A program made the translations under genes and the position numbers. Below are positions 1,264-59,378 of a DNA stretch of 64,000 nt, one piece after another. Numbering within the stretch: the stretch's first letter is position 1; every line of letters begins with the position of its first letter. This stretch comes from Pyropia yezoensis. Its lineage: Eukaryota > Rhodophyta > Bangiophyceae > Bangiales > Bangiaceae. The DNA lies in NCBI GenBank assembly GCA_009829735.1, contig CM020618.1, forward strand, positions 24,041,346 through 24,105,345, written 5' to 3'. The notes beneath the pieces are model-generated. The model was not told the origin of the DNA. It worked only from the letters and a program-made list of their open reading frames with translations, and ran no database searches.

Positions 1264-1267
1264 CCAA

Positions 1268-6521: not shown

Positions 6522-8123
6522 ATGGCGACCCCGGGGGCGGAGACGGACTCCCTCGATGAACGTATGGAGGACACCCCCTGCGGTGCGGCGCCCGCCGGGA
6601 CTTCCGGCGGGGGCTCCGCGGTTACTCCGGGGGATGGGACTCCCGCGTGACCCGGCTTTGGGTTGACGGCGGGATCTTCCCCGGAGGCGGGTCAAGTTGT
6701 CCCGCGTGAGGCCTTGGGGCGGTGGTTTTACCCCGCTTGGCCTCTGTATGAGGAGGGGTTGACTGTTCTTCGCTGTGGCCGACTTGGCGCAGCGATGGGT
6801 CGGGTATGGGACCGCCTACGGGACAAGTATCCCCGTAGGGTCCGGTTCCCTGCCGGCTTCATGACGGACCAGTTTGCCTTCCAGGACGATGAGGAGGTCG
6901 AGGACGGACAGCGGGCCAAGGCCATGATGGACTGCGGGGGAACTATCCCGGGTCCCGGCGACTTGCCGACCTTTACTTGGGACGCGGTCGCAACTCGCCC
7001 CCCGTACCTTCACGAGGCCGATCCGCACACTCATCACTTTGATGTGCGGATGAAGAAAGACTTCCGGCGAGGTCCCTACATGGTGACCTCGGCTCAACTT
7101 GAGTTTTCGCAGCAGTCTGCTGCCAGTAAAGAGCAGTACTACCCGAAGATGCCCGAGTGGTGGCCTCAAGTTGAGGTCCCCTACGGGTTCCCGGCGTTGC
7201 TGCCACGGTTGCTCGACCACTTCGGCTCCGTCATGCTGACGCCTAGCCCGGATCATCTTGTGTGGGTCATGTTAGCCACCCAGTGGCTCCTCGAGGTCAT
7301 GTCGACCTGAGTGTCCTGTGTCCATCGGCGGGGGATGCTTTGGCATCTCCCCCTCCGGATTATCCAAGGTTTGGAACAGCTCACCCCTCAGCTAGTTGCT
7401 GAGGGGTGCTCATCAGGACAACTCACTCTACTTGAGGAGATGCTTCGCCCCCACAAGTCTATCGAGTGGGAGAGCATTGAGCACAAGTTGCGCCGCCCCA
7501 CTCGTGGGCCCAAGGACGGTGGCGCACTTCGCCAGTTCGCATGGGTCGCTCGTGAACTGCACGACGGCCGTGTGGTGCTACGAGAGTGGTGGGGCATCGC
7601 GGACTACCCGTATGCCCCGGGGGTGGATCGCCACACTGCGCCACCCCCGCACAAGGCCATAGTTATGGCCGTGCCCTTACATGATGACCACATGACTCAA
7701 CCCACTGCGGGGGCCCCAAGTCGGGGTCGCAGTTACACCCGACCACCGCCACCTCGGCGTGACCCTCTGCTTCCAACTGTCCCCTACAAGCCGCACGGGG
7801 ACATCCCTATTAGCGTGGACGTTGAGTCGTCCACCCCGGTGTCCCCCAACTTGAGGGCCACCCTTCTGACGGTATACCCCAAGTTGGTGTTACCGCCCAC
7901 GCCTCTGACCTCGGACATGATGATCACCACGTTGGTGCGCACCATTTCCTGGTTGGCCACGTCGACCGCAACCCTGCAAGCTTCCGCGACTCCTCAACTT
8001 GAGGAGCGCGTTCGTACTGCAGTGGCGACCGCGAAGTGCGAGTCGGTGGCGGAGTTTATGACGGCCGAGTTGGCTCGCATTGGGGCTATTATGCCCCAGC
8101 CAGCCCCACTTGGGCGTGGCTAA
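6522..8123 (+). pseudogene. Antisense accessory ORF of chromovirus copy B
   Basis: It lies between integrase and the 3' LTR, opposite to gag-pol. ATG 6522 is in a good initiation context (gagccATGg). The frame runs about 533 codons to TAA 8121-8123, broken only by in-frame TGA at 6648-6650 and 7308-7310. It shares WWPQVEVP, GMLWHLPL and YPYAPGVD with the equivalent motifs in copies A and E. After the conserved central part come a Pro-rich linker and a C-terminal probably helical segment. No catalytic motif or known family is recognised. Because three diverged elements keep this protein at one site, I take it as a real accessory gene decayed in this copy. An SR-rich open frame follows at 8190-8477 and might be an exon or shifted tail. 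Confidence 0.75.
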
Positions 8124-8566: not shown

Positions 8567-10130
8567 TCATGTTGAGGGGGGGCTGTTAGGGTCTATCTCA
8601 TTGCGGGCACAGTATGCCCGGACCTTCTCAGCGGGAAGGTTCTCCACATATTCCCACGTATCATCCTTGGCTTTGTAGCCGAACCAACGCACCCTCAACA
8701 TGAGGCGGTTAGTGTCCTCATCCCAGCCGTGGTCGATGAAATTATCGAACACGTACTCCTGCGGGCCCTGTTTGGCCGCAGGCAGTGAGGGGAGGCGCCA
8801 CGCTTCCAACGCACGCGCCCAAGCTGGGTCGCCTGCAGGCGGTGGTGCAACTTTGACCACGTCCTGTCCGTTCACTGTGCGGACCCCATCGTCACTTTCG
8901 ATGGTGAAGCGCCGCCCATCAGTACGAAGGACCTGGTACGGCCCCTTCGTCTGGAATACCAACTCACCCCCAGTAGGGGTGTGTGAGTGAACCAGCACCC
9001 AGTCACCCTGCTCGGGGACATGCTTAGCATTGCGCACCTTTTTGTCAAAGGTACGCTTGTAGCGCTTTTGTGCTTTGTCCATCTCAGCCCTGACTTGAGG
9101 GATGAGGTGTTCCAGCCTAGCAGCGAACTCCGCCTTACTCTCAGTAGGAGTAGGCGTACTGCCACTATCCTCCCTAGTTGGGAGCGACCGCCGCACGGCA
9201 ATAGACCGCACACGACGGGGGGTCACAAAAGCGAGGGGTACTTCCCCGGTAGATGAGTGAACCTGCGAATTGTAGGCAGTAGTAAGGATAGACATGTATT
9301 GGTCCCACGTCTTCACGTGCTCACTCACATAGTGGCGCAGCTGCCGAACAATAGTTTTGTTGAAACGCTCCACCTGCCCATTAGTTTGTGGGTGGTAGGG
9401 GGTGGCATAGTATGCCTTAACCCCCAACATGTCCAGCACTCCCTGAAACAGTACAGACGCAAATTGCGGTCCATTGTCCGATAGTGTACTATCCGGAATG
9501 CCATACGCGGCAACCCAGTGATCTAGGAAGGCTGACACGACCGACATGGCCGTGATCTCTGCCAGTGGGATCGCTCGCGTAAGTTTCGTGAAGCGGTCAC
9601 AGATAACCAGGAGGTACTGGTTGCCCTCCTTGGTCACTGGCAGTTGCCCAAGGATGTCCATTGCCAACGCGGCAAAGGGCTCCTTGGCCGGGAACAATAG
9701 CATAGCCGTAGTAGGCCGCCGTTCCATCAGGCGGTTCTGCGCACAACTTGTCCAGACAGCCACCCAACTGTAGATGTCCACCACCATGGACGGCCAGTAG
9801 TACCTGGTCGTCAGGGTCTGGTACAGCTTACTAGACCCCAGGTGTCCACCTGTGGGAGCGTTATGCTCCCTCTCAAGGATACTGTCCCTGAGGGATGCGG
9901 GGACGACAAGTTGTTCGGTCCCCTGGAATAACCCCCTCCTCATGAGGAGGCCATCGTCTCCCAAGAAGAACCGCGTCTCCGCCACTGTATCCAGTGTATC
10001 CCTCTGCGACTTGCAGAAGGGATCCTCGGCCTGGGCCTTCACCACCTCGTCCAGGGACAGGGGCAAGTACTTCTTGTTCCCTGGCGCCTCGGGCTCTAAC
10101 ACCTGACCCGAGCGCGTGACTACCCCCCAC
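8567..10130 (-). pseudogene. Integrase with C-terminal chromodomain (copy B)
   Basis: The integrase part of pol. N-terminal H-H-C-C zinc region (EREHNAPTGGHLGSSKLYQT, then WTSCAQNRL, so one Cys looks replaced), then the DDE core: D in LAMDILGQLP, D in LSDNGPQFAS, E in NGQVERFN. A basic C-terminal domain (GPYQVLRTDGRRF) leads to a chromodomain-like end (LRVRWFGYKAKDDTW...LPAEKV), stop TGA at 8567-8569. Such tails target chromoviral integrases to chromatin (family knowledge). The frame joins the upstream RT-RNase H frame only after a one-base change in the G run near 10130; intact catalytic residues suggest recent decay. Confidence 0.88.
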
Positions 10131-11492
10131 GATGGGGATGTCCTCATCGACTGGGTTAGTGTCCAGCCCCTCGGTAGGTACCCGAGAAAGGCAGTCGGCA
10201 AGGGCATGTTGCCTGCCACGTCGGTACTCAATATCAAAGTTGAAGGGTGCCAGTCGCACCCTCCACCGGATGAGACGAGTGTTCGTACAATCCTTCTTAA
10301 AGATGAACTGCAACGCGCGGTGCTCACAGCGGATGAGGAACTTCTCACCCTCTAGGTAGTGACGAAGTGACGTCACCGCCCACACCACTGCGAGTCCTTG
10401 CAACTCGGTGACTCCGTAGTTCTTCTTGGCCGAGTTCAGCCCCTTGCTGAAGTATCCCACCGGCAAGTACTCCTGGTCCGGCTGCTGCTGAAGCAACACA
10501 CAACCAAGTTGGTCGTAGCTAGCGTCCACATCCAGGATGTAGTGGCCTCCCAACCTGGGAATAGCCAGGATAGGGGGCCTCAGCAGAAGGTCCCGAAGAG
10601 TCTCAAAGGATTCCTGCTCCACCCGACTTGGGGGAGGCAGGTTCTTCGGTAGCGTTGAGCTCACTAACTCATTCAACGGCTTCGCCACCTTGGCGAAGCC
10701 CTTGGTGAAACGTCGGTACACGTTACACATCCCGAGGAAGCTCCTCATCTGGGTCTGGGTCCGGGGGTACTGAGCCTCACGGATGGCCCACAAGTTCTTC
10801 TCGTTGACACCGAGACGCCCCGGACGGACAACATGTCCCAAGTATTCGACCTCCTGAGTGAAGAGGTGGCACTTACTCGCCTTCAGTGACACACCGGCGT
10901 CAGCAAGTGGCTTGAACACCTGGCCAAGATGGCCAATGTGTTCCTCCGGACTTCGGGAGAACACAATGACATCGTCTAGGTACACGAGACAGATCTGCCA
11001 CCGTACTCCGGCCAGAATCATGTCCATAGCGCGCTGGAAAGTTGCCGGCGCGTTGCACAGTCCACACGGTAGGCGCTTGCACTGGTAGGTACCACAGTGA
11101 CAGGTAAAGGTAGTTTTATGCCTGTCTTCCGGGGCAATGGGGATTTGCCAGTACCCCGCGTTACAGTCCAGAGTAGAGAACACGGTTGCCTCCCCCAGAG
11201 AGTCCGGATCGTCGTCCATCCTAGGTAGGGGATAAGTGTCCTTCACCGTGCTCTCGTTGAGCTTACGGTAGTCGATACAGAACCGGGGGGTCCCATCAAC
11301 TTTGGGGACGATAACCACCGGACTCGCGCACTCGGCGTTACTGGCCTCGATCACATCGAGGGCCTCCATGCGAGCAACTTGCTCCTTAACGAGGGCCCTT
11401 GAACGGGGTCCTCCTCTATACGGTTTTTGGCGTATAGGGGGTGCACCGGGCTTCAACTCGATCCGGTGTTGGGTGGCTCTCATGAGTCCCAA
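10131..11492 (-). pseudogene. Reverse transcriptase and RNase H (copy B)
   Basis: Open for the whole domain pair. RT shows FCIDYRKLNEST, the GYWQIPI segment, LPCGLCNAPATFQRAMD and the intact catalytic YLDD box (about 10970-10985). The thumb/connection carries YLGHVVRPGRL and FLGMCNVYRRF. RNase H follows with DVDASYDQLG, the TELQGLAVVWA segment and a late D (ALADCLSR). It is separated from protease by an in-frame TAA at 11493-11495, so pol cannot be read through in this copy without suppression. Confidence 0.92.
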
Positions 11493-12552
11493 TTAACCAT
11501 CCCACAACTTGTGATATTGGTCCAAGAGGCGTTCAACTTGAACCCTCAACCTGGATGGAACACCCTCCATGTTCACATGGGGCCGAGGAGAGGCGGCCGA
11601 CTTGGCTTGATGCTTCTTTTTTCCGGACTTCGGGTCGCTACTTGCGCCCGCGTTGAGGGTGACCGCTACTACCGGTCCCTCATATTCGTCGATATAGCCG
11701 AACTTGGCTCCCGACTTGAAGTACTTGGGCGACGAGCTCAGGTTCATCACCTGGATCCTCCACGGGACTCCGGCTTTGGAGTCCATCGTGCCAAGGGCAA
11801 CATGCACTTGGTGCTTGCGAGCAAGACGGGGGTGAGGGTGCACCAACCCGTTCCCCGTGTAATCAGTTACATTGTCAACGTGCGCCACCGAGTTGGGGGG
11901 CAACGTGACTTTACGAGCTAAACGCAGGGTAGCAGTAAACCCTTCTCTCACAGAGCAAACAGGCTTCGACTGTGAGACTGTCACAGGAGCCACAGACTTT
12001 CCCTTACCAAGGATGGAGATGGTTTCCCCATTCATCGACTTGACCCAATACTCAGGGCCACAAATCAAAGGCACTTGTGTAACAACATAAGGGGTACCCA
12101 GAAGCAGGGGTACTGATATATTCTCAACTACTTCATAGGTCACTTCGACCTCATGGGTCCCCAACCTAGTTGGTAGGGTCACGGCACCAACGATGGGAAG
12201 TACCCCACCATTGATATCGATCAGATGGTCAGCTGTAGACCTCCAGCGTTGGAGCTTCATCTCCTTTGGTAATAGCGACTTGCGTATCAAGGAGGCTCCT
12301 GACCCGGTATCAAGTACGATACGGGCACAGGTGGCACGGCCGGGGGAAAAATTGCACCCGTCCAGCCACCTGGAAGTTCTCACCTGTCAGCACCGCGATG
12401 ACCCGACGTGGGTTTACGTTCGTGGGGAGTCCTACCCGAGGTGGGCGGACTCCCTTAGGTCGCCGCAGTATCCGGCACGGTTGGTTCGTCCTCTTGACCC
12501 ACTTGGCCGAGGCTGCCGTTGTGAGCTTCGGACGGCCAGCTCCAACGGTCAT
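11493..12552 (-). pseudogene. Aspartic protease region (copy B), in -1 frame relative to gag
   Basis: Translation starts by frameshift from gag near 12555; the -1 frame overlaps the gag stop. After about 70 codons a homopolymer (T5C5 in element sense, near 12345) puts the rest into another frame, where the retropepsin active site LDTGSGASLI stands at about 12298-12320. The region ends with a linker toward RT and TAA at 11493-11495. The frame switch by homopolymer may be a true mutation or an assembly error. Confidence 0.8.
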
Positions 12553-12561
12553 TCGTTTCCC
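12516..12561 (-). promoter_or_regulatory. Predicted -1 ribosomal frameshift signal, gag-protease junction of B
   Basis: Slippery heptamer G GGA AAC (12561-12555, phased as GCG GGA AAC) lies two codons before the gag TGA (12551-12549). A 6-nt spacer (GAATGA) is followed by a hairpin at 12548-12516: stems CCGTTG/CAACGG and GAGCT/AGCTC, one bulged A, 10-nt loop. The -1 frame continues straight into protease. The heptamer is of the canonical X XXY YYZ type used at retroviral gag-pro junctions. Confidence 0.82.
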
Positions 12562-14384
12562 GCCGACTTGGCGTCCGAATCTGAGGGCGGAGTGGAAGAC
12601 GACAAGTCCGAGGACGACGTGTCCGCCTCCTCCGCCGAGGGTGTGGCGACCGGGACGACCGTTCGAGACACACCCTCGCGGCGTGAACGTACATCGTTCG
12701 TAGCCGACTTCTTACTCGCATTCCTAACAAGTTGTTGGATGCGTTTACTCAGCTTGGGGCAATCATATGCCCAGTGTCCATCGGAGTTGCAGTTCCAACA
12801 CCGATTGTCAGTTCCCGGAGGGGTCTTCCCAACTGGGGAAGACGAAGAGATACCCTGGGAAGTTCCCACGGCAGCTACCACCCTTTCCTTGCGGATTCGG
12901 CGTGCCTCTCTCAACTCTCTGGCCTGGCACGCCTCCTCACGTTCCTTGGCCAACTCGGCCTGACGCTCCTGGCGTTGTTCCTCCCGCAACTTGCGGTAGG
13001 CCTCACCTCTGCGGTAAGCGAACCTAGCCAACTCGGCCAGGGTCGCCCGGGCAGTGTTATGCTCCCGGGTCTCCATCTGGACTGACCAATGGAGTCCCTC
13101 CACAAACCGACTCTTCACCACAGCTTGTGGATGAAGAAACCCACAAAGATTGTTGAGCTTACGGACTCGCTCCGCAAAAGACAACTCGTCCTCGGCCTCT
13201 TCCTCATGGGCTTGCGTAAGCTCCTCGACTTGAGAAGCCAACGCTGCTTCATCCACCATGGCTCTCAACAACCAGTTGACGAGCTCCAAGCAGGACGTCA
13301 CCTCACCAGCGCCTCCACTTGAGGAGCTGGGCATGGCGGACATAAGTTCTGTCCGCAGGTCCCCCTTCGTGAATTCCTGTAGCATATAGAAGGCCATGCC
13401 TTCACTTATGGCATTGTCTTCACAGGCTTTTGTGAAAAGACGTAGGAACTCAAAGACACGGAGGGGGGGACCTCCATCCCACTCCGCTTTGTGCCCAAAA
13501 GAGTGAAGTGCATTCTTCCTGGCACGGCCCATGGCTCGGGCCTGGACAGGACGGTATGGTTACGCCACCGACTTGTTGTGGAGGGCGTAGGTCTCACAAT
13601 CAAGGATCCTCTGGTAGACCGTATTGGCTACCTGGATCTTGGGCGGCACCTCACGTTGAGGAAACAGCCGCTGTGGCACCGTTTCCAGGGGAAACTCCTC
13701 CGTGAAGGGCGTACGCCCCACCGAGATTGGTGTGGCTCCCTCGTTGGGAGTCACAGGTGTCGCCCCCTGTTCGGGGCGACCTGAGATAGGCGTGAGGAGG
13801 GATTCCCTCTGCGCCTGCGGGCTCGAAAGCCTCAATCCGGTCTGGACATTAAGACCATCTGGCAAACTCGCCACAATCTGATTCAGAATAGTATTCGTCA
13901 TCGTGACCACCAGGTCCGGCAAAGTCTGCCGCAACACATTGGTCGCCTCCCGACGGACAGTTCCCGGGAGGAGTGGATTGTCGTCTCCAGTTGAGTCTCG
14001 ATCCGCTTCCGGGAGTCCACCTGAGGGGTAACCACGTTCCTCAGGGGTCTCAACCGGGGGCATGGGCGCGAGCCCATCGCCGACCAACGGAGGTCCGCCG
14101 TCCTCCGAAAGCCTAGTTGGCGACGGCTCCAAGCCAAAGTTGGCTCCAACCCGAGTGGAACCCGCGGGGACAGTCCTCACCCCTTGGGACGTTCCCGTTG
14201 AGCTTACCACACGGTGGCCAGACTTCGGCCCACCCACATCAGAAGTGTCACCCGAGTGAACTCCCGACTGAGTCGGGGTGGCCTGTTGCCCGCCCGCACT
14301 TCCAGTCCTGCTGGCTTGAGGGACCTCTAGTTCCTCTGCGACCCCAGGTAAACCAACCTGTGTCTCACCAGTTTTCAAAGGCAC
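12549..14384 (-). pseudogene. Gag polyprotein (copy B)
   Basis: One frame from at least 14384 to TGA 12549-12551, broken only by TAA at 13560-13562; the text on both sides aligns in frame with the Gag at 21694-20243 (NKSV..., then W-DG-PPL-VF). Conserved capsid-like segments include LELVNWLLR and FVEGLHW. A CCHC zinc knuckle (CWNCNSDGHWAYDC) lies near 12768-12810, followed by an Arg/Ser-rich tail. The N-terminal third is Pro/Gly/Thr-rich. The start codon is not settled; the first codon at 14384 is GTG. Confidence 0.85.
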
Positions 14385-14561: not shown

Positions 14562-15030
14562 TGTGGCAAAAACCTCTCGCACACACGGCACCCAAGTTGG
14601 GGCGGTGTACAAGGGCTGCCTCCCGTGTCGGGGGGACCGGAAGAAGTGCAAGTCGCACACACTCTATCCCTGTTGTGGGGCAATCCCCCCACTGACAAAC
14701 AAGAAGATGGTGTGTGGTCCAACAGTTTCTTGTTCGGGACGGGGACGCAGGGCCAAGCCCCGCTGTCCCTCCCCTTACCCCCCCAGGGTCCCCTCAGAAT
14801 CTCGTCACTCAGAATCTCCCACTCCAGCACCTGCCCACCGGGCCACACGAAAATTCAGGACGATCAATGCAGAAAACCCTCAAATCCAAGTTGGATTTAT
14901 TACTAAGCTAACTATCCCAAACTTGGAGAATATAGACCCAAATGCAGGGGGAGGAACGGATCAGGCTAGTGGCTTGCCGCTAATTGCATCGCACGTGTTG
15001 CCCCCCTACCTGGGGGTCAATACTGACACA
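14562..15030 (-). repeat. 5' LTR of element B
   Basis: 469 bp, direct copy of 5715-6183. In element orientation it starts TGTGTCAG (15030) and ends CCACA (14562). Confidence 0.95.
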
Positions 15031-15035
15031 AAAAG
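15031..15035. repeat. Target-site duplication of element B, right copy
   Basis: AAAAG, matching 5710-5714; satellite text resumes directly after it. Confidence 0.9.
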
Positions 15036-22302: not shown

Positions 22303-25153
22303 AGCTCCGTCCCCAAGCCTGGGGGCGGTAAACGATTTTGCATCGACTACCGTCGTCTTCATGAGATGATGGTGAAGGATGCATATCCTATACCGCGTAT
22401 GGACGAGTGCTTAGATTCACTCGGGAACGCCAACGTCTTTTCGACGGTGGATTGTAATGGTGGCTACTGGCAAATACCGGTAGCCAAGGAGGACCCGCCG
22501 TTAACGGCCTTTACGTGCCACTCTGGAACTTGGCAGTGCAAGCGCCTCCCTTTTGGGTTGTGCAACGCGCCAGCCACCTTTCAGCGTGCCATGGACATGA
22601 TCCTGGCAGGCGTGAAGTGGCAGATATGCCTCGTCGTCTTGAATGACGTTATTGTCTTTTCCCAAGTCGGCGGAGGATCATTTAGAGCACCTTGAGACGG
22701 TGCTCTCCCTCCTCAAGGCCCATGGGGTTTCCCTCAAAGCCAACAAGTGCCACCTCTTTCAAGAGGAGGTCGACTACCTCGGCCATGTCATAAGACCTGG
22801 CCGCGTTCTCGTTAACGAGAAAAATACGAGAGCGCTACGAGGGTTGCAATACCCTCGTACACAAACCCAGATGAAAGGTTTTCTGGGGATGTGCGGCGTC
22901 TATCGGCGCTTCGTACGGGACTCCGCCAAATTAGCGAAGCCCCTTACCGCGCTGACGAGTACCAAGCTTCCTACGAAGCTATCTCCCCCCACAGAGGTGG
23001 AGAGGAACGCTTTCGAGACGCTACGGGGGCTGCTTCGATCACCCCCCGTGTTAGCGATACCTCGGATTGGCGGCCACTATATAGTGGACGTGGACGCGAG
23101 CTATGAGCAGCTCGGCTGTTGTCTATTACAGCAGCAACCCGACGGGGAATACCTCCCTGTAGGGTATTACTCCCGGCTGTTGAGCCCGGACGAGAGAAAT
23201 TATCACGTCACCGAGATTGAAGCGCTTTGTGTCGCATGGGCCGTGACACACCTACGATCCTACCTTGAAGGGGAGGAATTTGTAATAGGGTGTGATCACC
23301 GTGCCCTTTTGTCGGTGCTGGCTACAAATAGCCCAAACATACGGATTAACCGTTGGCGGCTTCAGCTGTCTGAGTTCACCTACAAACTCCGGTATAAACC
23401 GGGGGCCGACCATAAGGTGGCCGCCGCTTTGTCACGCTTGCCCACGGACGAGCCTGACAAGGCTCCTATGGATGAGGACCTTCCGGTCCTCGCCACGGTG
23501 ACCCGGTCTGCTCAGGCTTTGGCCGGGCGGAGCGAGAAGCATCGCCTTTTGGGGCCCATTACGGTAGAGGAGCTTACAAAAGCTCAGGCTGAGGACACCT
23601 TCTGCCTGGAACGGCGGGAGGAATGGGAGTCGGTACCTCCCCCTGACCCGAAATGGGCCAGGAAGGCTTTCTTCTTCGAGAACGAGGAAGGAATACTATG
23701 CCGGAGGTCCTTCTTCCTGGACACCACTCAGATGGTGATCCCCACATCTCTGCGGGAACGTCTTATGACGTACCACCATGAGTTACCATTGGCGGCTCAT
23801 CCTGGGGCTCGCCGGATGTACGCCACGCTGAGGCGTGGGGTCTACTGGCCCACCATGATTGTAGACGTGTACAAACACGTCTCCCAGTGCACGGGGTGTG
23901 CTCCAAATGGGCTGGATGAGCGTAGGCATACGTCTACGCTCAAGCTATTCCCAGCCAACGAGGCCTTCGCCAGCCTGGTGATGGATATTCTCGGACCCTT
24001 ACCCGCTTCTGAAAGCGGTAACAGGTTTATACTTGTTATGGTGGACCGTTTTTGTAAGCTCACCCGGGCGGTCCCCATGAAGGAGATTACCGCGGTGGCA
24101 GTGGCTTCGGCTTTTATTGACGCCTGGGTAGCGTCTTATGGCATACCCGACTCAACGCTGACCGATAACGGTCCGCAGTTTGCTTCCGTCTTTTTCCAGG
24201 GGGTCTTAGGACTCCTACGGATTGAGGCGAAGTATACGACGCCTTACCACCCCCAAACAAATGGGCAGGTGGAGCGATGTACTCGCACTATTATAAGGCA
24301 TCTCCGGGTTTATACCGCGGAGCACCCAAAGGAGTGGGACCGTTATGTCTCACTCCTCACAACGGCCTATAACACTCAAGTGCATTCTAGCACTGGACAG
24401 GCCCCCCTCATGTTTGTGAGCCCAAGGCGGCTCCAAACCATGGGGGTCGAGCGCCTCCCTAAGCTCCGTCCCCTTAAGGAGAAGGAGGACTTGGAGGAAG
24501 GCGAGGAAGAGGACTCCCGGACCGCAGCCTTACGGTTTGTGGAAGACTTGAAGAGCATCATTCCCCAGGTGCGTAAGCACCTGGCCAAGGCGCAGGAGGC
24601 GCATAAGAAAGCCTTTGACGCCACTGTCGCGGAGAAGAATAAGGACCTGCGGGAGGGGGACTGGGTCTTCCTGGCCTCCCATACCCGTAAGCGGTCTAAC
24701 CTCGCTCATAAGAGCGTGGGCCCCTACATGGTCTTGAGGACCGATGGGCGACGCTTCACTGTCGAGACCCCTTCAGGGATCCGAACGGTTACGAGTGACC
24801 ATGTCACTCGTGCCCCGGCACGCCAAGCAGGCCATCCTGCCTGGGCACGTGCCGAGGCAACACGAGCCAACTTTAAAGTGGCTCAGCCCTCCCCGAGCAC
24901 AGGAGATGGCAGAGAGTACGTGTTCGAGAAGTTTGTGGACCACCGCTTTCATGCGGAGACAGCGCTTGAATTACGCATACGCTGGTTCGGCTATGGCCCC
25001 CAGGTTGATACCTGGCGGCTAGCAACGGGTTTGCCGGCTGAAGCCGTGCGAAGATATTGCAGGAGAAGGAAGCTTAAAATTCGGGTTACCCCGAGTGGCA
25101 TCTTCTTTTATGCCACGGTACTAAGAGGTAAGGGGCAGAAGCTTGGACTTTAA
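22303..25153 (+). pseudogene. RT, RNase H, integrase and chromodomain (element D)
   Basis: Plus-strand pol beginning abruptly in RT at VPKPGGGKRFCIDYRR. The catalytic box reads VLND instead of YLDD (about 22633-22648), so RT would be inactive. A single-base frameshift near 22660-22680 separates it from the long open frame 22643-25153. That frame holds the RT thumb (YLGHVIRPGRV, FLGMCGVYRRF), RNase H (VDVDASYEQLG), the integrase zinc region, the DDE core (LVMDILGPLP, LTDNGPQFAS, NGQVERC) and the chromodomain-like tail (ELRIRWFGYGPQVDTW). It is very close to copy A at 1-1263. Its missing 5' part is probably the inverted half at 19047-22302. Confidence 0.9.
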
Positions 25154-25845
25154 TGGAAGTCGCCCTCTCTAATCTCTCCCGCCGACTGTGACGACTACGC
25201 TTTCCATTAAGAAGACAAGGAGCACCCCACCGCGCATGGTCACCTCTGCGCTAGCATTGTGGGAAAATGTTTGCTTCGACCGTAAGGTCGTGGGTTCACG
25301 TTCACGGCATCGGTCGTGGACCTTCCCCGCGAGGCTATCACCTACGTGAGGAAGCGCAAGGCTTAAGACGATGGCGGACGCCGTCGTCGTCGCCAAAACC
25401 TTTTGCGTCGACCCCATATGGGGTCGCCTTGCTAACGGCGTCGATGGCGTACGCCCCGACGGCCGTTTACACTGGTACCGTGGTACCACTTGGCCAACTC
25501 ACCCGCCAGAAGGGGGTGGTGGACGCGTACGTTTACACGCGTGCGTTGCTTGGCACGTGGCCGTCGTCACCCCCATGGGGGTGCACCGGCAAAGGGCGTG
25601 CAAGCAGAGTGACGGGAGAGGGTCAGAAGACCCTCCCACAGTTGCCGCCCTTGACGGTGGCAACAACGACCGCTCGCCCTTGCCCTTGGTGGAGTCGTGC
25701 CGATCCTCGTCCAGAGGGACGAGCGGTACGCCCAGGTGGGTGTCGACCCCATCAGGGGTTGACCCACGGTCACCCTCCGGTATGTCATCCACCCCCATAG
25801 GAGGGTGGTCTCCCGGAGAGGACATAGCGGCCGCCCAGAAGGGCG
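25154..25845. other. Unassigned sequence 3' of pol D
   Basis: Where copies A, B and E carry the antisense accessory gene, I find no recognisable version of it here. Open frames exist on both strands but show no family motif. A short stem TCGGG/CCCGA at 25081-25094 near the pol end parallels copy A. Confidence 0.4.
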
Positions 25846-26250
25846 GCCCTGCAACAAGGAAGCAGGCGCCCGCCCACAGCGGCGACGCGTCCGGCCAGAA
25901 GTTGCCCGCCCACAGAGGGGGCGCGACGACAACAAGAGCGCCCGCCCTTGGTGGCGGCGCGGCGGGGAGGAAGAGGTCCGCCGACAGCGGCGGTGCAGCC
26001 ACGACGACAGCGCCGGCCCGCAGCGGCCGGACAAAGACAACGGCGACCGCCCACAGCGGCGCCGCAAGAAGGACGACAAGGCCGGCCCACAGCGGCCGGA
26101 CAACTGCAAAGCCGCGCGCCCGCAGCGGCAGCGCGGCCACGACAACGCCGGCCCACAGCGGCCGGACCACAGCAACGGTGCCCGCCCGCAGCGGCGGCGC
26201 GCCGAGGAGGAGGTGCCCGCCCGCAGCGGCGGCGCACAGATAAGCCGATG
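25846..26250. repeat. Degenerate minisatellite (about 33-36 bp units)
   Basis: Imperfect tandem units built on GCCCACAGCGGCCGGAC or variants; on the plus strand they would read as repeats of A-H-S-G. Open frames through it on both strands are repeat artefacts. Confidence 0.7.
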
Positions 26251-26534
26251 TAAGACGCCCGGAAGGCCGGCACACTCCGAGCGGAGACCCCCGTTTAAAG
26301 GGGAGAGGGGGGGGGGCGAGTAAGGTGCCCCGCCGAAAAACGGAGGGGTCCCACAAGGAGGCCGGTGGCTCCACCGTATGGTGGAGCCAAGGACGAGGTC
26401 GACAAGGAGGGGAGGGGTGACACTCTCTCTCCCCTACAGACCCCGCGGTTGAACCCTCGTCATAGGGCGCGAAGAGCGAAGACGCCCGGGAAAGCCCGGG
26501 TCGCACCCGTTCGGCGCACGCCCGGTGCCCCCGG

Positions 26535-26722
26535 ATGGGGAAAACCCTCAAGTCCATGTTCGATTTACTATCAAGCAAAGTATCCCTGACTTAGGAAAGT
26601 TCGGGATCAAATGCAAAGGGAGGAACGGGTCAGACCAGTTGTCCCCTGTCCCATTATGGCGCGCTCTGCCCCCCTGCGTGTTGCCAGTTCTGCCACACTC
26701 ACGGGCCCTACCTGATTCTACA
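26535..26722 (-). repeat. LTR-like fragment related to element B LTR
   Basis: The plus-strand text (AAAACCCTCAAGTCC, a TTTACTATCAAGC stretch, then AAATGCAAAGGGAGGAACGG) parallels the right two-fifths of the B LTR at 14874-15030, with many differences. It is fused directly to the middle of a gag gene on its right, so it does not bound an intact element. Confidence 0.6.
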
Positions 26723-29465: not shown

Positions 29466-31400
29466 AAGAATGACGTCCAAGAGATTCTCAAAGAGTACGC
29501 CGACGTCTTCCCAGAAGAGCTTCCGGATGGACTTCCTCCTGAACGCAGGCACAAGTTCAGCGTCAAGCTTACGGAGGACGCTCAACCCTGTCGCAGTGGC
29601 ATTTATCGCCTATCTGAGTGGGAACTCGATGAACTCAAGACACAACTTGCAACCCTCATACGATAGAGGCTCATCCAACCGCGCACCTCACCGTGAGGCT
29701 CCTCTGTACTCTTTGCAGCGAAGAAGGACGGTGGCTGGCGAATGTGCATCGATAATCGAGCATTGAGCAAGGCCACTATCAATCACGCACATCTCTTCCC
29801 ACGGATTTACGACATCTTCGAGCAAGTGCGAAAAGCTGAGGAATTCACGAAGATCGACCTCCCATCAGGCTACCACCAGATCCGGCCGGACCCTGATACT
29901 ATCCCGCTGACGGCGTTCCGAAGAAAATACGGGTTCTACGAGTTTACCGCGCTACCCTTTGGGCTAACAAATGCCCCCACGATCTTCATGCACCTAATAA
30001 ATGACGTCTTCCGACCCAATCTCTACGATTTCATACGTGTCTACCTCGACAACATCCTGGTCTACAGTGAAAATTACGAAGATCACATTGAGCACCTAAG
30101 GCAAGCCCTGGACAAGTTGCGAGAGCAAAAACTGTACGCCAAGCTTAGCAAATGCCAATTTGCTTGAACAACTGTGGACTACCTCTTCCACGTCAGTTCA
30201 ATCGAAGGCTTGTCTATGGAGGACTACAAGGTCCAAGCCACTCGATCATGGGCAACGTCACAAAGGAAAAACGATGTGCAATTCTTCCTTGGCATGGTCA
30301 ACTTCTATCGTCGATTTATGAAGGGAATGGCATCCGTGGCTTCACATCTCACAATACTCACTGGGAGCATCGACTTTGAATGGAACTCTGACGCCCAGAA
30401 GGCTTTTGAGCAACTCCAAACGCTGACGATAAGTGCACCGGTATTGAGGCCATTTGACAAGAGTTACCCAATCTTTGTGTCCACAGATGCCAGTGGCTAT
30501 GCTGTTGGCGCTGTCCTTGAACAAGATAACGGAAAAGGACGACACCCAGTGGCCTTCTTCTCATTGACTCTGAATATTCACGAACAGCGCTACAGTATCC
30601 GTGCGCGCGAACTGCTCGCAGTAGTACTAACCATTCGACACTGGCGCTGCTACCTCCATGAAAGACCTCTCGAGGTGCACAGCGACTATGAGTCTCTAAG
30701 GTACCTGAAAACCCAAGAGAACCTCAACGACCGCCAAGTCAACTGGCTGCAGCTATTGAAGCAATTCGACTTCAAGATCATCCCCATCAAGGGCACATCG
30801 AACCCCGTAGCTGATGCTCTTTCCAGGCAACCACAAGACGCCCCCGACAAGCACGCTCCCAATCAAGATCTCCTTAGTCGTGCGTTAACCAAGATCACCG
30901 AACACCTACCCGAGATAACTGAAATCAACAACCTCATGACCATAAGCCCAAGTGATCAAGACTTTGCCACCCTAGACCAAGAGTACAACGCGGACCCCGA
31001 GTTTGCCGACCTATTTAAAGACCCGGTATCTCCCTACCGGCTTCACATGAGGTTGTTGAAGCGAGGTGACCGTACGTGCATCCGCGTGGGTACTCTATGC
31101 CAGAGACCACTCCATGACTAGCACGACATCCCAAGTCAAGGGCACATGGGAGTCAAAAAAAACACCAACGATATTGCTTTCAAATACTACTGGAAGACGA
31201 TGCGGAAGGACATCCTAAGATACGTACAATCATGTGATTTGTGCCAGCGGAACAATGCTGGCACCCATTCACCTCTGGGTCACCTCAAAGCACTAGATTC
31301 ACCGAACCAACGATGGGCAAGTGTCTCCATGGACTTTATCACCCCTCTTCCACTGACCCCAAAGGGCCACAATGGCAATTAAGTCATTGTAGACAGACTG
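29448..31400 (+). pseudogene. RT-RNase H-integrase N-terminal part (second chromovirus)
   Basis: RT starts DVQEILKEYADVFPEELPDG and shows WRMCIDNRALSKATI, GYHQIRPDPD and LPFGLTNAPTIF. The catalytic box is YLDN (about 30040-30052), so the second Asp is lost. RNase H follows (FVSTDASGYAVGAVLEQ...ELLAVV), then an integrase zinc region (CDLCQRNNAG) and the start of the core (WASVSMDFITPLP). Stops at 29664-29666, 29688, 30165-30167, 31119-31121 and 31381 break the frame. Confidence 0.85.
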
Positions 31401-32388
31401 TCGAAGATGATTCGACTAGCATCAGTGAAGCCCGACCGTCCTGCACCACTCGTAGCGCAACTCTACCATGATCACGTCTACCGTCATCACGGTCTACCAT
31501 CCGACGTCGTCTGCGACCGAGACCGTACCTTCTTCTCCACCTTCTGGCAGTCGCTCGCCGAAATTCTCAAGGTCAAGATCAAGGCATATTCGGCCTATCA
31601 TGCCCAGACGGATGGGCACAACCGAGATCATGAACAAGAAAATTGAAGACGTCCTGCAAAAACCCGTGAACCATCACCAGGGCGATTGGGATCTCTTTCT
31701 TGTCGCTGCAGAAGTAGCTTACAACCGGTCACCCCATGCGGTCACGACGTACTCCACATTCTTCATGAACCATGGGTTTGAACCAAGGACGGTACCGGTG
31801 GACATCCTCGACAGTAAGGAATCGAAACTAACAGCAGTCTCAGATTTGCTACGCAGTCTGCCAAAAGCTCAGGAGACTGCCATTACCGCCATCAAGAAGG
31901 CCAATGAGACTCGCTCGGCGTACGCTAACCGCCGACGCCGACCATGTACGATGGCTGTCGACGGTCTCGTGCTCCTGAGCACCATGAGCCTTATGCCGGA
32001 CGCCTTCCAAGGCGCTCGCAACTTGATGCTGAAGTTTTCGGGACCATACCGAGTCACTGACAACATCAACCATGTTACGCTCCGTTTGGATCTTCCTCAA
32101 GCAGTCCTTGATCGAAAGGTGCACAACGCCTTTCACGCCAGTCTACTGAAGCCGTACAGCGCTGATCCGTATGGTCGACTTCCCCCCACTCCACCTCCGG
32201 TAGCATTTCCGGACGGTTCGGTTGAGTACGAAGTGGGCTCCATCATACGGTCACGAAAGCACAGTGGACGACTGCAGTACCTGGTCAAGTGGAAAGGCTG
32301 CGGTGTCAGCGAGAACACCTGTCTAACCAAGCAAGACCTCGCGAACGCACCTGAAGCTCTCGACGCTTTCCTTCGACGCTCGTGCTAA
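31401..32388 (+). pseudogene. Integrase core end and classical chromodomain (second chromovirus)
   Basis: The core continues in one frame to about 31646 (DVVCDRDRTFFSTFW; the expected TDGQTE-like site reads TDGHNR), then shifts to a second frame that ends at TAA 32386-32388. The C terminus is a classical chromodomain: YEVGSIIRSRKHSGRLQYLV, then KWKGCGVSENT, with Trp-to-Cys changes at expected aromatic positions. The element is dead but clearly a separate lineage from copies A-E. Confidence 0.85.
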
Positions 32389-45885: not shown

Positions 45886-45888
45886 TCG

Positions 45889-53386: not shown

Positions 53387-55790
53387 AGTGTTTACCCTGT
53401 TGGGTGAAGCAGGAGTAACACTCAAACCTACGAAGTGTCACCTCTTTAGTAATGAGGTGGAGTACCTCGGCCATATAGTCCGGCCAGGTCGCATTCTGGT
53501 CAATGAGAAGAACCTCATGGCCATCCGTCGGGCGAAGTTCCCCCAGACGCAGACACAACTCAGGAGCTTCCTGGGTATGTGTAACGTATACAGACGCTTT
53601 GTGGCGAACTATGCCAAAGTGTCTGCACCGTTGAACCACTTGGTAAGTTCCAAGATGCCCAAGCGCTTGGATGCTCCCAAACCCCCGGAGCAAGAAGCGT
53701 TTGATAGGTTGCGAGAGCTCCTCTGCAACCCACCGGTGTTAGCGATCCCGAGACCGGGGCTCACTACATCGTTGATGTGGACGCAAGTTACGACCAACTC
53801 GGTTGTTGCTTACTCCAACAACAGCCTTCGGGGGAGTATTTACCCGTTGGCTATTTCAGTAAGGGACTCTCACCCGCCCAGAAGAACTATTCTGTGACGG
53901 AGGTAGAGGGTCTTGGCGTGGTATGGGCAGTCTCCATGCTACGGCCATACATCGAAGGAAGGAAGTTCCTCATTCGATGTGACCACAAGGCTTTGAAGTG
54001 GATACTCACACACTACAGCCTGTACGAATAACCGACTCAATCGATGGCGACTCTGCCTCGCTGAGTTCGATTATGATGTTGAATATCGGCCAGGCCCGAA
54101 GCATGCGGTTGCGGACGCGTTGTCTCGCATACCGACGGATGGGAAAGACACTTCCCCTATCCCTGAGGAACTCCCTCATGTGGCAGTGACCACTCGCTCC
54201 GGAACTGTCCTCGACCCGAGGATGCCTGGCATGGCCAAATTATTACCCGTGTCTTTGGATGAGTTTGTCCAGGCACAGGAGAGCGACAAACTTTGTCGAC
54301 GACTCAGGAAGGAGCTCGACCAGGCTCAACCGACTCGGTTCTTCCTGAATGACAACGGCATACTCTGCCGTAAGGGATATACCCAGGGGGACAAGCAAGT
54401 CGTCGTCCCCAAGGAGTTACGCAAGAGTATCCTCCAACGGGAGCACTCCTCACCGTTGGGTGGACACCCAGGGTCTACGAGGATGTATCAGACCCTACGT
54501 AAGAAGTACTATTGGCCATCACTCGTGGCTGATGTGTACGGATATGTAGCCGCATGCGCGACTTGCGCAAAGAATAGACTCATGGAGTCCCGGCAGACTT
54601 CTTCCATGAGACTCTTTCCTGCAACAGAGCCGTTTGCAGCGATAGCAGTGGACTTACTCGGTCCACTACCACGAACACCTGAAGGATATGAGTACCTTCT
54701 GGTGATGTGTGATCGCTTCACTAAGCTCACACGGGTATCCCCACTCAAGGATATCACAGCCGTGGACGTTCTGAGTGAGTTACTCGACGTCTGGGTTGCC
54801 AGTTATGGCATCCCCGACTCTATCCTTTCGGATAACGGACCACAGTTTGCGTCCGTCCTGTATCAGGGAGTCATGAAGATGTTGGGGGTGCAGACGAACT
54901 TCGCCACCCCTTACCATCCCCAGACTAATGGGCAGGTGGAACGATTCAACAGGACTCTAGTGCGCCAGTTGCGTCACTATGTCCATGACCATGTAGTCAC
55001 ATGGGCTCGTTATGCGTCACTACTCGTGACAGCATACAACTCCCAGGTACACAGTAGTACGGGAGAGGCACCGTTTGCCTTCGTCTGCCCCCGACGACTT
55101 CCGTCAGTAGCTGTGGAGCGTCTCACCCAGACTGAGGGTGAGACTTCGACTCAAACACCGAGTCAGGCGAAAGCCTCCCTACTCCAGAGACTGGAGGAGA
55201 TGATACCCCTTGTCCGGGCTACTATGGAGAAGGCCCAAGCCCGTTACAAGAGGTACTTCGATGTCCGAGTCAGACATCGTCGCGATCCGCTCCGAGTTGG
55301 AGATTGGATTTATGTTAACTCCCACGACAATAAGGGAGGGAAATTGGTCTTCAAGACTCTGGGACCATATCACATCCTTAAAACGGATGGACGTCGGTTA
55401 ACCATCGAGAGTGATGATGGTATCCGGACAATAAATGGGAATCACGCGACTCGCGCACCCGAACCCCCAGAGGGAGATCCCGCTTGGGAAAGGGCTTTGC
55501 AAGCATGGAAAGTCCCATCCTTGCCGACCTCTTCCAATAAGCCATTGGAGGCGGTGTTCGACAAGTTTGTCGGGCACGGATATGATGAGTCGGGGCGACT
55601 CATGCTCCGAGTCAGGTGGTTCGGGTATGGACCAACTTCCGACACATGGGAGTTTGTAGAGGACCTACCAGTAGAGAAGGTCCGTAGATACTGCCAGACT
55701 GTGGGCATATCTATACGCCGACGTAGCACTCGTACGTCGGGGGATGAAGTCCCTGCTCCAAGTCAGAGCAGAGCGGCAAGCCAACCATGA
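53387..55790 (+). pseudogene. RT end, RNase H, integrase and chromodomain (chromovirus copy E)
   Basis: Starts after the RT catalytic box (GVTLKPTKCHLF, YLGHIVRPGRI, FLGMCNVYRRF). A frameshift near 53755 and another near 54000-54040 break RNase H (MDASYDQLG...). From 54120 to TGA 55788-55790 one frame carries the rest: zinc region (REHSSPLGGHPGSTRMYQT...CATCAKNRL), DDE core (AVDLLGPLP, LSDNGPQFAS, NGQVERFNRT), basic domain and chromodomain-like tail (LRVRWFGYGPTSDTW). The integrase catalytic residues are intact. Closest in the window to copy B. The 5' half lies in the gap. Confidence 0.9.
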
Positions 55791-55918
55791 GTACAAACAC
55801 ATACCATGGTTCTTCAAAGAATCTCTACTAACAAAGCCGACTATGGCACAATACAAAACGAGAAGAATACCCACCACTCTTCTCACCAAGGAAAGAACAA
55901 GTCGTTCGACCGCTGACT

Positions 55919-57835
55919 CTAGCGTTCCATATGGCCACCCCCACCACTATAGGGACCGCCCGACCACGAACCCCCAGGGTCGTAGGCCGGTAGCGGAGGG
56001 GCGTAACCCACTCGGGAGGGCCCCGGAGTGGAAGCACTGGGAGGGGCCCGCCGACTCGCGGACCCATCCCCGTCGTAAGATAGATGTCCGGAGGTACTCC
56101 CTCCGTGACGCGGAAGCTGCTGCTGAGTCGACAGCAGCCGTTGGACAAACTCGTGTCCAACCGCGAGGCGAGTGACCTCAGCTGCCAATGACTGTCGCGC
56201 CGTGGCTGAGTCGCCCGACGCGAGGAAGTGACTGACACGCCGGGTGACCCAAGCCAACGTGTCAAGGGAGGCCACGAGTGAGGCCTCCACCGTGGCGTCA
56301 TACATGATGGCTCCCAAGTTGGGAAGCATCTCGCCAACGCCACGCGCAATCGGCATGGGTACCGGAGTTCGGACCCGTAGCGAACCCAACGCCACGTCGG
56401 GGAAGGGCTCGAGGAACTGGAAGGGTGGAGCCTGAGTCGGCTCCACACCCCCCGAGGTCGGAGTCGCGACCCGCGGGGAAGTCGTCGGCACAGCTCGCCC
56501 GCGGCTTCGAGGGGCTCCTCGATGAGCACCACGACGAGTCGTCGCCGATGATGTCGCCCACCCAGAGCCAGGGGGCGACGTAGAGGGAGTAACCCCCTCT
56601 GCGTAGGGAAGGGAAGAGTCCCCCAACCCCTCACGCAAGAACAGCTGTCCCTGCACCAGAGTATGGGTGACATGGACGAACTCCCGGGGTGGCTCACTCT
56701 CCAACCCCGGCTCTGGACGCTTGTTGCGGCGGAGGAAGGGTTCCAGCTGCGCCCAATCGAGTCGATTGTGCAGGGTGACCATACCCTTAAGGAGGAACGG
56801 AGCCAGGTCCCCCGCGCCCAAGGCTAACCAGTGGAAGCCAAGGGTTTCCATACCCTCCACCAGAGCCGGTGGGAGGTGCCACAGGTAACCCCGATGGACT
56901 ACATCGGAGTACCAGCCCCGAGCCACCACGACCACCCAGTGCGTGGCGAGGTAGGCGAAGACCCGGCCACCCTCCGAGCTGGAGCGTAGCACGGAGCCAA
57001 AGTAGGCAACGAGGAGGGGGATCCGAGCCGGAAACCCACAAGGTACCTCCACTGTCTCCCACCACCCTGGGAGAAAAGGGTACTGGTGCTCACGCTCCTC
57101 CAGAGGTACGTGGGTGAACTCCACCCGCGACCCGTGGATGAGGAAGCCCGAGGAGCCCCGGAGTCGGAACTCCTCTCGCACCACGCCGTGTTGGGCGTGG
57201 GCGTCCTCTCCGCCCAGGTAGGGACGGGGAAGGGCACACCACTCGGTAGACACAACCGCGTGGGTGTCGTCGATCTCCTTGTCGCCCGACCCCAAGGCGA
57301 GGGAGGTTGACAACGCCTGGACTTCAGGCGCGTCCGCCAGGCAGAGTAGCGCTGGTAGGTCGCAGACCACCCCATCAGGTAGAGTCACCTGGTTGGGGTA
57401 CCGACGAGTCCGGCGGTACCATACGTCGGTCCGCCGTGGCTCGGGGATGATCAAGTAGACATCCTTGAGCTTGCAGTCGGGAAGCTCCCCGACTGACTTG
57501 GGAGGCGCCCAGGCTCGGGGCCCCATAAGAGGACGGGGCCGCGGCGGGAGTAGCAGCCGTGACTCAGGAAGGCGGGGGATGGGAGTCACATCCCCTTCCG
57601 CCACCGGGTTGGAAGACCCATCCCCCGGTGGGACCACGGCCGAGGGGGCAGTAGGAGGTGATGGGGCGGGGACGGTTGAGGCGGCCGCCTCCGACCCTCG
57701 CCCGGGACGAGTCGTCTCCATGGCCGACCCCCGGCTGAGAGACTCCTCAGTCCCGAGGGCCTCCTCTCCCGTCCGTCGCTTGTCCGACAGAGACGTCGGA
57801 GACGGGGACAAAGGCCGACTCGGCTCACCCGCCAT
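55919..57835 (-). CDS. Antisense accessory protein of chromovirus copy E (intact)
   Basis: An uninterrupted 638-residue gene converging on pol, 128 bp from the pol stop. ATG 57835 (MAGEPSRPLSPSP) is preferred: the open frame upstream is a low-complexity repeat, and copy B starts similarly (MATPGAETDS). Residues 1-110 are Ser/Pro/Glu-rich. The conserved middle contains YRRTRRYPNQVTLPDGVV, WWETVEVPCGFPARIP, GYLWHLPPALVEGME and LPYAEGVT, shared with copies A and B. The C-terminal third is Pro-rich, then helical (LAWVTRRVSHFLASG...), with a Ser/Gly tail. No zinc, protease or coat motif is recognised and no signal or membrane segment stands out. Intact while its own pol is broken. Function unknown; plant Ty3/gypsy lineages also have antisense ORFs here (known), but I see no sequence match to claim. 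Confidence 0.8.
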   Translation of the reverse strand: MAGEPSRPLSPSPTSLSDKRRTGEEALGTEESLSRGSAMETTRPGRGSEAAASTVPAPSPPTAPSAVVPPGDGSSNPVAEGDVTPIPRLPESRLLLPPRPRPLMGPRAWAPPKSVGELPDCKLKDVYLIIPEPRRTDVWYRRTRRYPNQVTLPDGVVCDLPALLCLADAPEVQALSTSLALGSGDKEIDDTHAVVSTEWCALPRPYLGGEDAHAQHGVVREEFRLRGSSGFLIHGSRVEFTHVPLEEREHQYPFLPGWWETVEVPCGFPARIPLLVAYFGSVLRSSSEGGRVFAYLATHWVVVVARGWYSDVVHRGYLWHLPPALVEGMETLGFHWLALGAGDLAPFLLKGMVTLHNRLDWAQLEPFLRRNKRPEPGLESEPPREFVHVTHTLVQGQLFLREGLGDSSLPYAEGVTPSTSPPGSGWATSSATTRRGAHRGAPRSRGRAVPTTSPRVATPTSGGVEPTQAPPFQFLEPFPDVALGSLRVRTPVPMPIARGVGEMLPNLGAIMYDATVEASLVASLDTLAWVTRRVSHFLASGDSATARQSLAAEVTRLAVGHEFVQRLLSTQQQLPRHGGSTSGHLSYDGDGSASRRAPPSASTPGPSRVGYAPPLPAYDPGGSWSGGPYSGGGGHMER

Positions 57836-58290
57836 CACGCGACCAACCTTGACCGACTCGGTGAGGTTGAGCACGGGGGGGGACACGACCCGCTCCCCCT
57901 CCGACGACAACCAACCTTGACCGACTCGGTGAGGTAGAGCAAGGGGGGGGGACACGACCCACACCCCCCACCGACAACGAAGAAGCCCGACACAAGGGGC
58001 AGCGCGGGGAAAACACAACCCCGCCGACGAAGAAAAGGGGGGGGGAACACGACCCGCGCCCCCACTGACAACGAAGACGCCCGACACAGGGGCGGAAGGG
58101 GGAAGACACCACCCCAACCAACGACACCAACCGCACGGCGGGAAGAGACAGACCCGCCGACGCGAGGGGGCAGCGGCGGGAAGGCACACACCCGCCCGCC
58201 CACACGAAGGGGAGAGAAGACCCCGCACCGGCGGCCGAGTCCCACCGCCGGCGACCGAGTGCAACACCCCCAACTCGGGGTGCGCACACC
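57836..58290. repeat. Degenerate tandem repeat upstream of the antisense gene (copy E)
   Basis: Units starting CCAACCTTGACCGACTCGGT (57843, 57911) and GACACGACCC (57883, 57950; variant 58046), with G runs; later units (58080 on) are more diverged. It forms the leader of the accessory gene. Confidence 0.7.
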
Positions 58291-58826
58291 CCTCAACCCT
58301 GACTAGAAAGGGGGGGAAGGAGTGAGGAACACCCCGCAGAGAGCCAGCTGGGGGTGGATCGAGCTGAAGGGGGGGACACAACCCGACCCCCCGAGAGCAA
58401 CCGTACCCCAACTGAAGGGGCAGGTGCAGGTCGACGTTCCGAGTGAGAACGTCGACGCCCTACTCCTCCAGTTGAGGGGCAGGGGGTGTGGCGGAGGTAC
58501 GCCGACACCCAGATTAGGGAGCTCACCCACACGTGAGTCCACCCGTGGAGCACCCTGACCAGGTGGGGGACGACTTTCCCCCACACCTGTTTCGCGTGGA
58601 GGGGGCTCCTCTACCCAGTGTCAGGGCAGAGAGCGCACCCCACGGAGAGGGACTGCCTCTCCCGGAGGGCCCCGCCGGACGCGAGTGCAACCCCGGCGTA
58701 ACCCTGGTGCACGCTAGACGCCAGCGATGCACCGTACTTTGCATCTCAACTCGGGAATTGCATCCTCCTCTCCCGGTCACTGCGACTCGCCGCTGATTGG
58801 ACGTCCACCGGGACGGCTGGACTTTT
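58291..58826. other. Region between accessory gene leader and 3' LTR (copy E)
   Basis: No gene seen. As the accessory gene reads away from the LTR, its promoter should be here or in the LTR; I see no clear TATA box. Confidence 0.4.
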
Positions 58827-58839
58827 GAGAAGGGGGAAA
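58827..58839 (+). promoter_or_regulatory. Polypurine tract of copy E
   Basis: GAGAAGGGGGAAA lies directly against TGTGGGAGATTGGG, the start of the 3' LTR. Confidence 0.82.
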
Positions 58840-59378
58840 TGTGGGAGATTGGGCCGGAATTCGGTACCAATACTTTGAAGATTCGGGTCAAGTGGACCTG
58901 ACCGGAAGTCGAAATTCACCCGACCCACGATGGTGAAACTTCTGACTTCTGGACGGAAATTCGACTAGGACTTCCGACATACTAGAGCAGGGTAATGCTG
59001 CTGGTATTTGTTTCTTGGGATTTTTGCACGGGAGCCAGACGGATTTCTACGCTTTGAGTTCTTTGCATGTGGAGTGATATGATTGGTTTGTTTGAGGGTT
59101 CATTTTCTGAGTGTTTTGAGGGGTTGCGTGAGCGTGTGAGGAGGGTTGATAAGGAGGGACAGCAAGGCGGGGAGGGCCCACCTTGGCTGGCGAAGCAAGA
59201 AAACACCGTCTGGCTCCGACACATCTTGTTCGTGCCTTGGTGAGTGGACCCGCTCACCACACGCAAGTTCCGTGTTCGGCTGTGTGGAGGTGCTTGCTTC
59301 CGGTGTCCCAAGTTGGGATATCGGCAATACTCCTCTTCCTTCCCTGACTCGGGGTTGGTGCTTGGGAGTACTGCTACA
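58840..59378 (+). repeat. 3' LTR of copy E
   Basis: Starts TGTGGGAGATTG after the polypurine tract and probably ends ...GTACTGCTACA at 59378. The partner LTR would be in or beyond the gap, so the right end rests on the CA terminus and on the change of composition. Its last part (CCCAAGTTGGGATATCGGC) echoes the CCCAACTTGGG text near the end of the B LTR. Confidence 0.65.

Follow-up and report, generated by a model that had tools for sequence, protein, structure and literature searches.

What does a 638-codon reading frame that runs opposite to gag-pol do in a retrotransposon of the red alga Pyropia yezoensis whose own pol gene is broken? The frame lies within a stretch of 64,000 nucleotides, here called the window (C1:24041346–24105345 of an assembly of 107.48 Mb in 11 contigs, C1–C3 measuring 43.6, 34.3 and 29.4 Mb). 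It occupies the space between the integrase end and the 3' long terminal repeat (LTR) of a Ty3/gypsy element, E. Homologous frames are found in two further elements of the window, A and B, and in families elsewhere in the genome. On the grounds of position, conservation and selection we consider it highly probable (roughly 0.85) that this antisense open reading frame (aORF) is a real protein-coding, selected accessory gene of Ty3/gypsy elements in which the integrase has a chromo-like end.

From its ATG, the E frame (55922–57835, minus strand) runs for 638 codons without a stop, and it stays open upstream to 58459, giving 846 codons in total. Its stop (55919) and that of pol (55790) face each other over 128 bp. 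The GC content of this stretch (~66%) lengthens open frames and thus speaks for a frame open by chance. However, when the stretch was simulated 2000 times under a Markov-1 model, the longest open run over all six frames had its median at 207 codons, reached 385 at the 99th percentile and never exceeded 524, against 638 codons here (846 stop to stop), and further element families as well as a second species contain homologues. Chance is thereby refuted and retains practically no probability. When the 830-residue E frame was compared with the window by tblastn (E ≤ 1e-3), it retrieved, besides itself, two frames only, that of A (31%, 1e-15) and that of B (38%, 6e-33). Relatives without stops exist elsewhere in the genome, and the N-terminal start region of the E frame is similar in proteins P0002, P0003, P0006 and P0007.

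A first-pass annotation of this DNA had described, in A, B and E, a reading frame opposite to gag-pol between integrase and the 3' LTR side, with three shared motifs. This position is confirmed for E and B, while the homologous A frame converges with the integrase end; the three motifs are present in all three proteins, and E is indeed open for 638 codons while its own pol is frameshifted. Within the window, however, E alone is intact, since a frameshift divides the A frame and B contains two in-frame stops; a fourth copy, C, adds only the N-terminal ~50 codons of an A-type frame. No antisense frame was found in element D, the pol of which is only 22–30% identical and the LTRs of which were not located. 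With their 3' LTRs located, E and B both have the arrangement termed aORF-3R or eORF-3'R, namely a frame of at least 250 codons between pol and the 3' LTR in the orientation opposite to gag-pol. The A frame and those of families F and G, for all of which LTRs were not located, are convergent with the integrase end.

Selection at the protein level was estimated as the ratio of nonsynonymous to synonymous substitution rates (dN/dS) by the NG86 method, with 1000 codon bootstraps on selected pairs. Between F and G the ratio was 0.182 (0.141–0.233; dS 0.91), and six F-to-G pairs, calculated without bootstraps, ranged from 0.14 to 0.19. The A type gave 0.23–0.24, with window A against locus L061 at 0.232 (0.071–0.330) for a near-saturated dS of 1.80. 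The G loci L066 and L067 gave 0.40 (0.28–0.56), and window E gave 0.369 (0.24–0.57) against L068 and 0.322 (0.20–0.49) against L069. Among the ten pairs formed by window E and L068–L071, likewise without bootstraps, nine fell at 0.29–0.53 and one at 1.13 (L070/L071); all 34 E copies pooled gave 0.38. The lowest values came from three chosen B pairs: 0.041 (L060/L048; 0.01–0.08), 0.060 and 0.121. A ratio of 1 was reached in 0 of 1000 bootstraps for F/G, A/L061, E/L068, E/L069 and L060/L048. The earlier suggestion that the frame is a selected component of an algal chromovirus is thus upheld: in A, B and E, as well as in the F-to-G comparison, dN/dS stays far under 1. Along the F/G comparison, the first 80 codons gave 1.01 and later windows 0.09–0.20; the constrained part is therefore a stretch of ~400 residues. 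Third codon positions account for 220 of the 385 F/G differences.

This codon pattern bears on another explanation, according to which the antisense transcript is itself the functional product, forming double-stranded RNA with the 3' end of pol and silencing or tuning the sense RNA, while the frame is incidental. The convergent layout and the short spacer would suit such a role, and passages of PMC7264820 consider regulation by antisense RNA in plant elements. However, RNA function alone predicts neither the pile-up of differences at third positions, nor dN/dS of 0.04–0.37 between lineages in the bootstrapped pairs (close pairs excepted), nor long open frames kept at ~24–34% protein identity between families. 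RNA as the sole function is therefore refuted, and an RNA product with an incidental frame is very unlikely, although protein and RNA could both act.

Several observations weigh against the frame being a selected gene. The NG86 ratios are approximate, the near-saturated A/L061 value included. Close pairs of older copies gave 0.70–0.78 (three F pairs), 1.04 (L061/L062) and 1.13 (L070/L071), and the intervals of three bootstrapped close pairs span 1. Many older A-, F- and G-type copies carry stops, and the one pair read from a further family, H, gave ~0.65. At greater distances integrase is better conserved than the aORF (61.2% vs 31.5% between B and E). Wrong frames of three pairs, every one of which holds stops, gave 0.74–2.35, with the exception of one opposite-strand frame, full of stops, at 0.33–0.51; we read the latter as a shadow of the real frame. 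The comparison with pol was made on 15 intact B copies, taken from 29 fetched non-window loci for their readable 647-codon frame from ATG and divided into two groups after the distance table had been seen. Their pooled aORF ratios were 0.109 and 0.360 inside the groups and 0.171 from one group to the other. At these loci the pol end, for which 14 of the 15 had a frame that could be read wholly or partly (none in L036), gave 0.408 and 0.331 inside the groups and 0.289 across them. In one group, then, the aORF ratio (0.36) is not below that of pol (0.33).

The aORF and the pol/integrase end of the same loci are under selection of similar magnitude, and therefore the protein probably helps the copy or lineage that encodes it. 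The ratios of close pairs indicate that, once inserted, an individual copy is no longer selected. Ratios near 1, which the first-pass annotation had named as evidence against its claim, did not appear except in close old pairs, as expected for dead copies; the stops in many older A-, F- and G-type copies are a further exception. The overall pattern is that of a gene selected in propagating lineages and near-neutral in dead copies.

The gene is widespread in the genome. The match lists hold the best-scoring candidates, so that the counts are lower bounds and favour young copies. The E protein has at least 70 matches (the window copy included, one place split in two), 59 of 70 without internal stops. 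For the C-terminal 270 residues of the B protein there are at least 142, 138 of them without stops over the queried part. The A protein has at least 115, reaching down to ~31% identity and including E-type places. Reading some of the A-protein matches revealed two families absent from the window, F (L063–L065) and G (L066, L067). In 30 of 30 E loci, the window copy among them, the integrase chromo motif is no more than 1500 bp away from the aORF, and the tail-to-tail arrangement of aORF and pol recurs in B and, at one locus each, in F (L078) and G (L079). Absence of the frame from other family members, the second outcome named as telling against the annotation, did not appear among these lists, from which elements without an aORF would be missing because the searches started from the aORF.

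In order of identity, the aORF proteins share 72.8% between F and G, 54.9% between A and L061, 34.3% between A and F, 31.5% between B and E, and 24–33% in other pairs. For the integrase-chromo region the values are 86% for F–G (107 residues), 62.1% for A–C, 61.2% for B–E, 45.9% for A–F, 43.5% for A–E, 40.3% for A–B and 40.1% for B–F. In both tables B pairs with E and F pairs with G, and A stands slightly closer to F/G; since they agree, the gene seems to be old and inherited together with pol. Judging from identity tables rather than trees, the element probably already carried the gene when the A, B/E and F/G lineages parted, and gene and pol have been inherited together ever after.

Family H complicates this history. 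It comprises frames of ~488 codons, 30–33% identical to F, located on repeats (L075, L076 and L077; C3:8546900–8549800 and C1:8161800–8166900), and H-type sequences in varied states of decay occupy 27 places at ≥59% identity to L076 among at least 88 matches. The gene might thus have originated in an independent mobile element that became inserted in an ancestral chromovirus, the H repeats being that lineage or pol-less derivatives. Both the H frames on repeats and the failure to find pol-like sequence ~3.5 kb downstream of one H copy point in this direction, but the latter reading covered one side of a single copy (L076, L077) and the near flank of L075. Moreover, H is not clearly outside the other families (31.7% identity between H and F, 24.2% between H and B), which makes loss of pol as likely as independent origin. 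We regard a separate origin as unlikely.

The elements carrying the gene show the domains of Ty3/gypsy retrotransposons. RVT_1, RT_RNaseH, Integrase_H2C2 and rve were recognized in B and C (RVT_1 in C being partial, 27.8 vs a cut-off of 29.6), in the order reverse transcriptase (RT), ribonuclease H (RNase H), integrase, and integrase domains were recognized in E. The LTR features also conform, with TG..CA ends, a polypurine tract (PPT) and a short target site duplication (TSD), as seen in the B LTR pair with its TSD and in the 539-bp LTRs of the E family with their PPT. Element B is complete, with LTRs 96.6% similar and a 5-bp duplication, AAAAG, on both sides. Matches to Pfam Chromo are correctly placed in A (16.2), B (22.7), C (14.7) and E (18.0), all below the 25.1-bit cut-off; in D the score is 40.2, above it, and is accompanied by a Tf2-1-like SH3 match. 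The term chromovirus, used in the first-pass annotation, is therefore reasonable in view of the rightly placed matches in A, B, C and E, and formally weak because all four fall below the curated cut-off.

Features of elements A–E in the window (positions are those of the window)
Feature	Positions	Strand	Remarks
E, remaining pol (end of RT, RNase H, integrase, chromo-like C-terminus)	53387..55790	+	5'-truncated, frameshifted copy
E, spacer between convergent stops of pol and aORF	55791..55918		128 bp
E, antisense accessory ORF	55919..57835	-	638 codons + stop, intact
E, leader of aORF	57836..58839	-	degenerate repeats; presumed antisense promoter site
E, 3' LTR	58840..59378	+	539 bp; purine-rich tract abuts left side
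B, 3' LTR	5715..6183	-	on start side of aORF; TSD AAAAG 5710-5714
B, aORF, homologous to E	6522..8123	+	two in-frame stops
B, gag (zinc knuckle), protease-like, RT, RNase H, integrase and chromo-like frames	8567..13532	-	
B, 5' LTR	14562..15030	-	TSD AAAAG 15031-15035
A, integrase and chromo-like end	1..1299	+	broken over more than one frame
A, aORF	1274..2656	-	frameshift-split, pieces 1277-2332 and 2336-2656
C, pol (RT, RNase H, integrase, chromo-like)	22309..25153	+	
C, remnant of A-type aORF	25683..26540	-	~50 N-terminal codons and upstream repeats; 87-93% identical to L061/L062
D, chromodomain-bearing element of another lineage	29544..32388	+	LTRs not located

Element E is 5'-truncated: similarity to other copies spans 53387–59378, and its own 5' LTR is not in the window. 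The same 539-bp LTR lies ~3.7 kb upstream of the pol part in L073 and L074 (99.4 and 99.6% identity), at the place expected of a 5' LTR. The window copy of E has its pol distributed over two frames, and both indels are private to it in a comparison with one other copy, L072. The repeat content of the E leader varies among some copies. The element sits inside another repeat, which flanks it in two parts, 48500–52886 and 59379–60442; as these are ~235 bp apart in other genome copies, E appears to have landed in that repeat. The stretch 52887–53386 belongs by assignment to neither. Elsewhere in the window, a 334-bp tandem-repeat array (4900–5714 and 15029–19046) is split by the insertion of element B, an inverted pair of 192 nt, 87% complementary, is present at 45834–46025 and 60443–60634, and the region 40001–42000 has a GC content of 82%, with long C runs and GCC repeats.

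In order to characterize the aORF protein, 15 sequences were compared; near-invariant positions include WW-x3-EVP-x-G, W300, V304, G316 and W319. The protein searches scored the 8000 best word-sharing candidates, so that the taxonomic range is a lower bound. The only named homologues were four hypothetical proteins of Pyropia vietnamensis (Rhodophyta, Bangiales), and one further protein was 98% identical; a profile search with one sequence each of B, F, G and A added one more, P0016. A Pfam family was reported for none of the 15 proteins (the filters drop most matches above E 0.1). NCBIfam, searched with four proteins, gave no meaningful match, one being at E 0.25 to an unrelated family, and sequence search of the PDB was equally unproductive. 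Relatives of P0008 or E were not found in viral contigs with the patterns used. An AlphaFold2 model from the 15 sequences reached a mean pLDDT of 44.6 and a pTM of 0.31, with a better, mostly helical stretch at residues ~300–420. Foldseek comparison of the model with the PDB gave no match below E 2; with a model this poor, the missing fold match says little, and nothing is concluded from it.

The position between pol and the 3' LTR would also suit an envelope-like protein. However, the frame is antisense, none of the 15 proteins received a Pfam family, and in 13 of 13 proteins no membrane segment was found, the maximum 19-residue hydropathy (KD19) being 1.16–1.57 and no window exceeding 1.6; an envelope-like protein is thus largely refuted and has scarcely any probability left. 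A structural or particle protein, such as a second capsid-like, packaging or targeting factor, would be consistent with selection comparable in strength to that on the integrase end of the same loci and with the helical stretch in the model. Against it, profile comparison with the two gag frames of the window (that of B and the fragment 20363–21241) showed no likeness, and antisense expression would uncouple its amount from that of gag; the missing fold match adds little weight at this pLDDT. We consider a structural role improbable. By analogy with GENE23 of the Grande element, we tentatively favour a protein that may act in the nucleus on the expression or chromatin state of its own element, for example by regulating transcription or counteracting silencing, rather than serve as an envelope or capsid protein. 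Domains, folds and motifs gave no support for a nuclear or regulatory role except for a basic cluster, which the script pattern detected only in the C-terminus of the B type. Nor does a fold or domain point to any of the roles suggested in the first-pass annotation, namely control of sense transcripts, packaging or targeting. As in Grande, the gene would have its own promoter, either in the 0.3–1 kb leader between the start codon and the 3' LTR or in the LTR itself; transcription would converge on gag-pol, and the antisense transcript would presumably be translated.

A bolder proposal, which we hold to be rather doubtful, is that this family, lying outside Pfam and with all named relatives in red algae, is a core component of the whole chromodomain-type clade, needed by every propagating lineage, possibly for countering silencing, and used also by pol-less repeats. 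Were this so, the algal accessory gene would be comparable to those of lentiviruses and HTLV and independently evolved. Plant LTR elements are known to have extra antisense ORFs without an assigned function; here, one homologous protein is present in at least five families (A, B, E, F and G), and dN/dS as low as 0.04 between intact copies is strong evidence that the antisense gene matters for the success of the element. In a genome with at least ~200 matches of the two youngest families and with three large contigs, RNA, ribosome and localisation tests are feasible.

In passages of PMC6317226 on green plants, most non-chromovirus OTA elements are said to have extra ORFs, the proteins of which share no conserved domain across most members of a lineage. 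The plant mobile domain ORFs of Ogre (PF10536, PMD) are a lineage-typical extra ORF of Ty3/gypsy elements; none of the 15 algal proteins gave a match to PF10536, or to PF04195 (Transposase_28). The latter domain characterizes the TRP28 antisense ORFs of Retand, which, according to parts of PMC11963269, are encoded by 97% of recently active clusters; about half show tandem repeats in the same region. Retand elements are non-chromoviruses of flowering plants, whereas the algal elements are chromo-like, and PF04195 had no match at E ≤ 10 in the P. yezoensis genome or in 14 control genomes (none of them a plant). In site and orientation the algal gene equals gene23 of maize Grande and the corresponding gene of rice RIRE2 (excerpts of PMC7264820), plant elements likened here by arrangement; for Grande, an own promoter and a nuclear protein are reported, as cited there. 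The same source, in part, places an antisense ORF between pol and the 3' LTR in Boty of the fungus Botrytis cinerea, which extends the arrangement outside plants, the likeness being one of arrangement alone. HBZ-type genes of HTLV, antisense retroelement genes for a nuclear protein (as cited in part of PMC11963269), serve as a working analogy only. Antisense ORFs in red-algal retrotransposons were not found among the listed titles and abstract openings of the open-access literature. Antisense genes between pol and the 3' LTR were thus already known elsewhere; what is new is the host, a red alga, the chromodomain-type lineage and the protein family.
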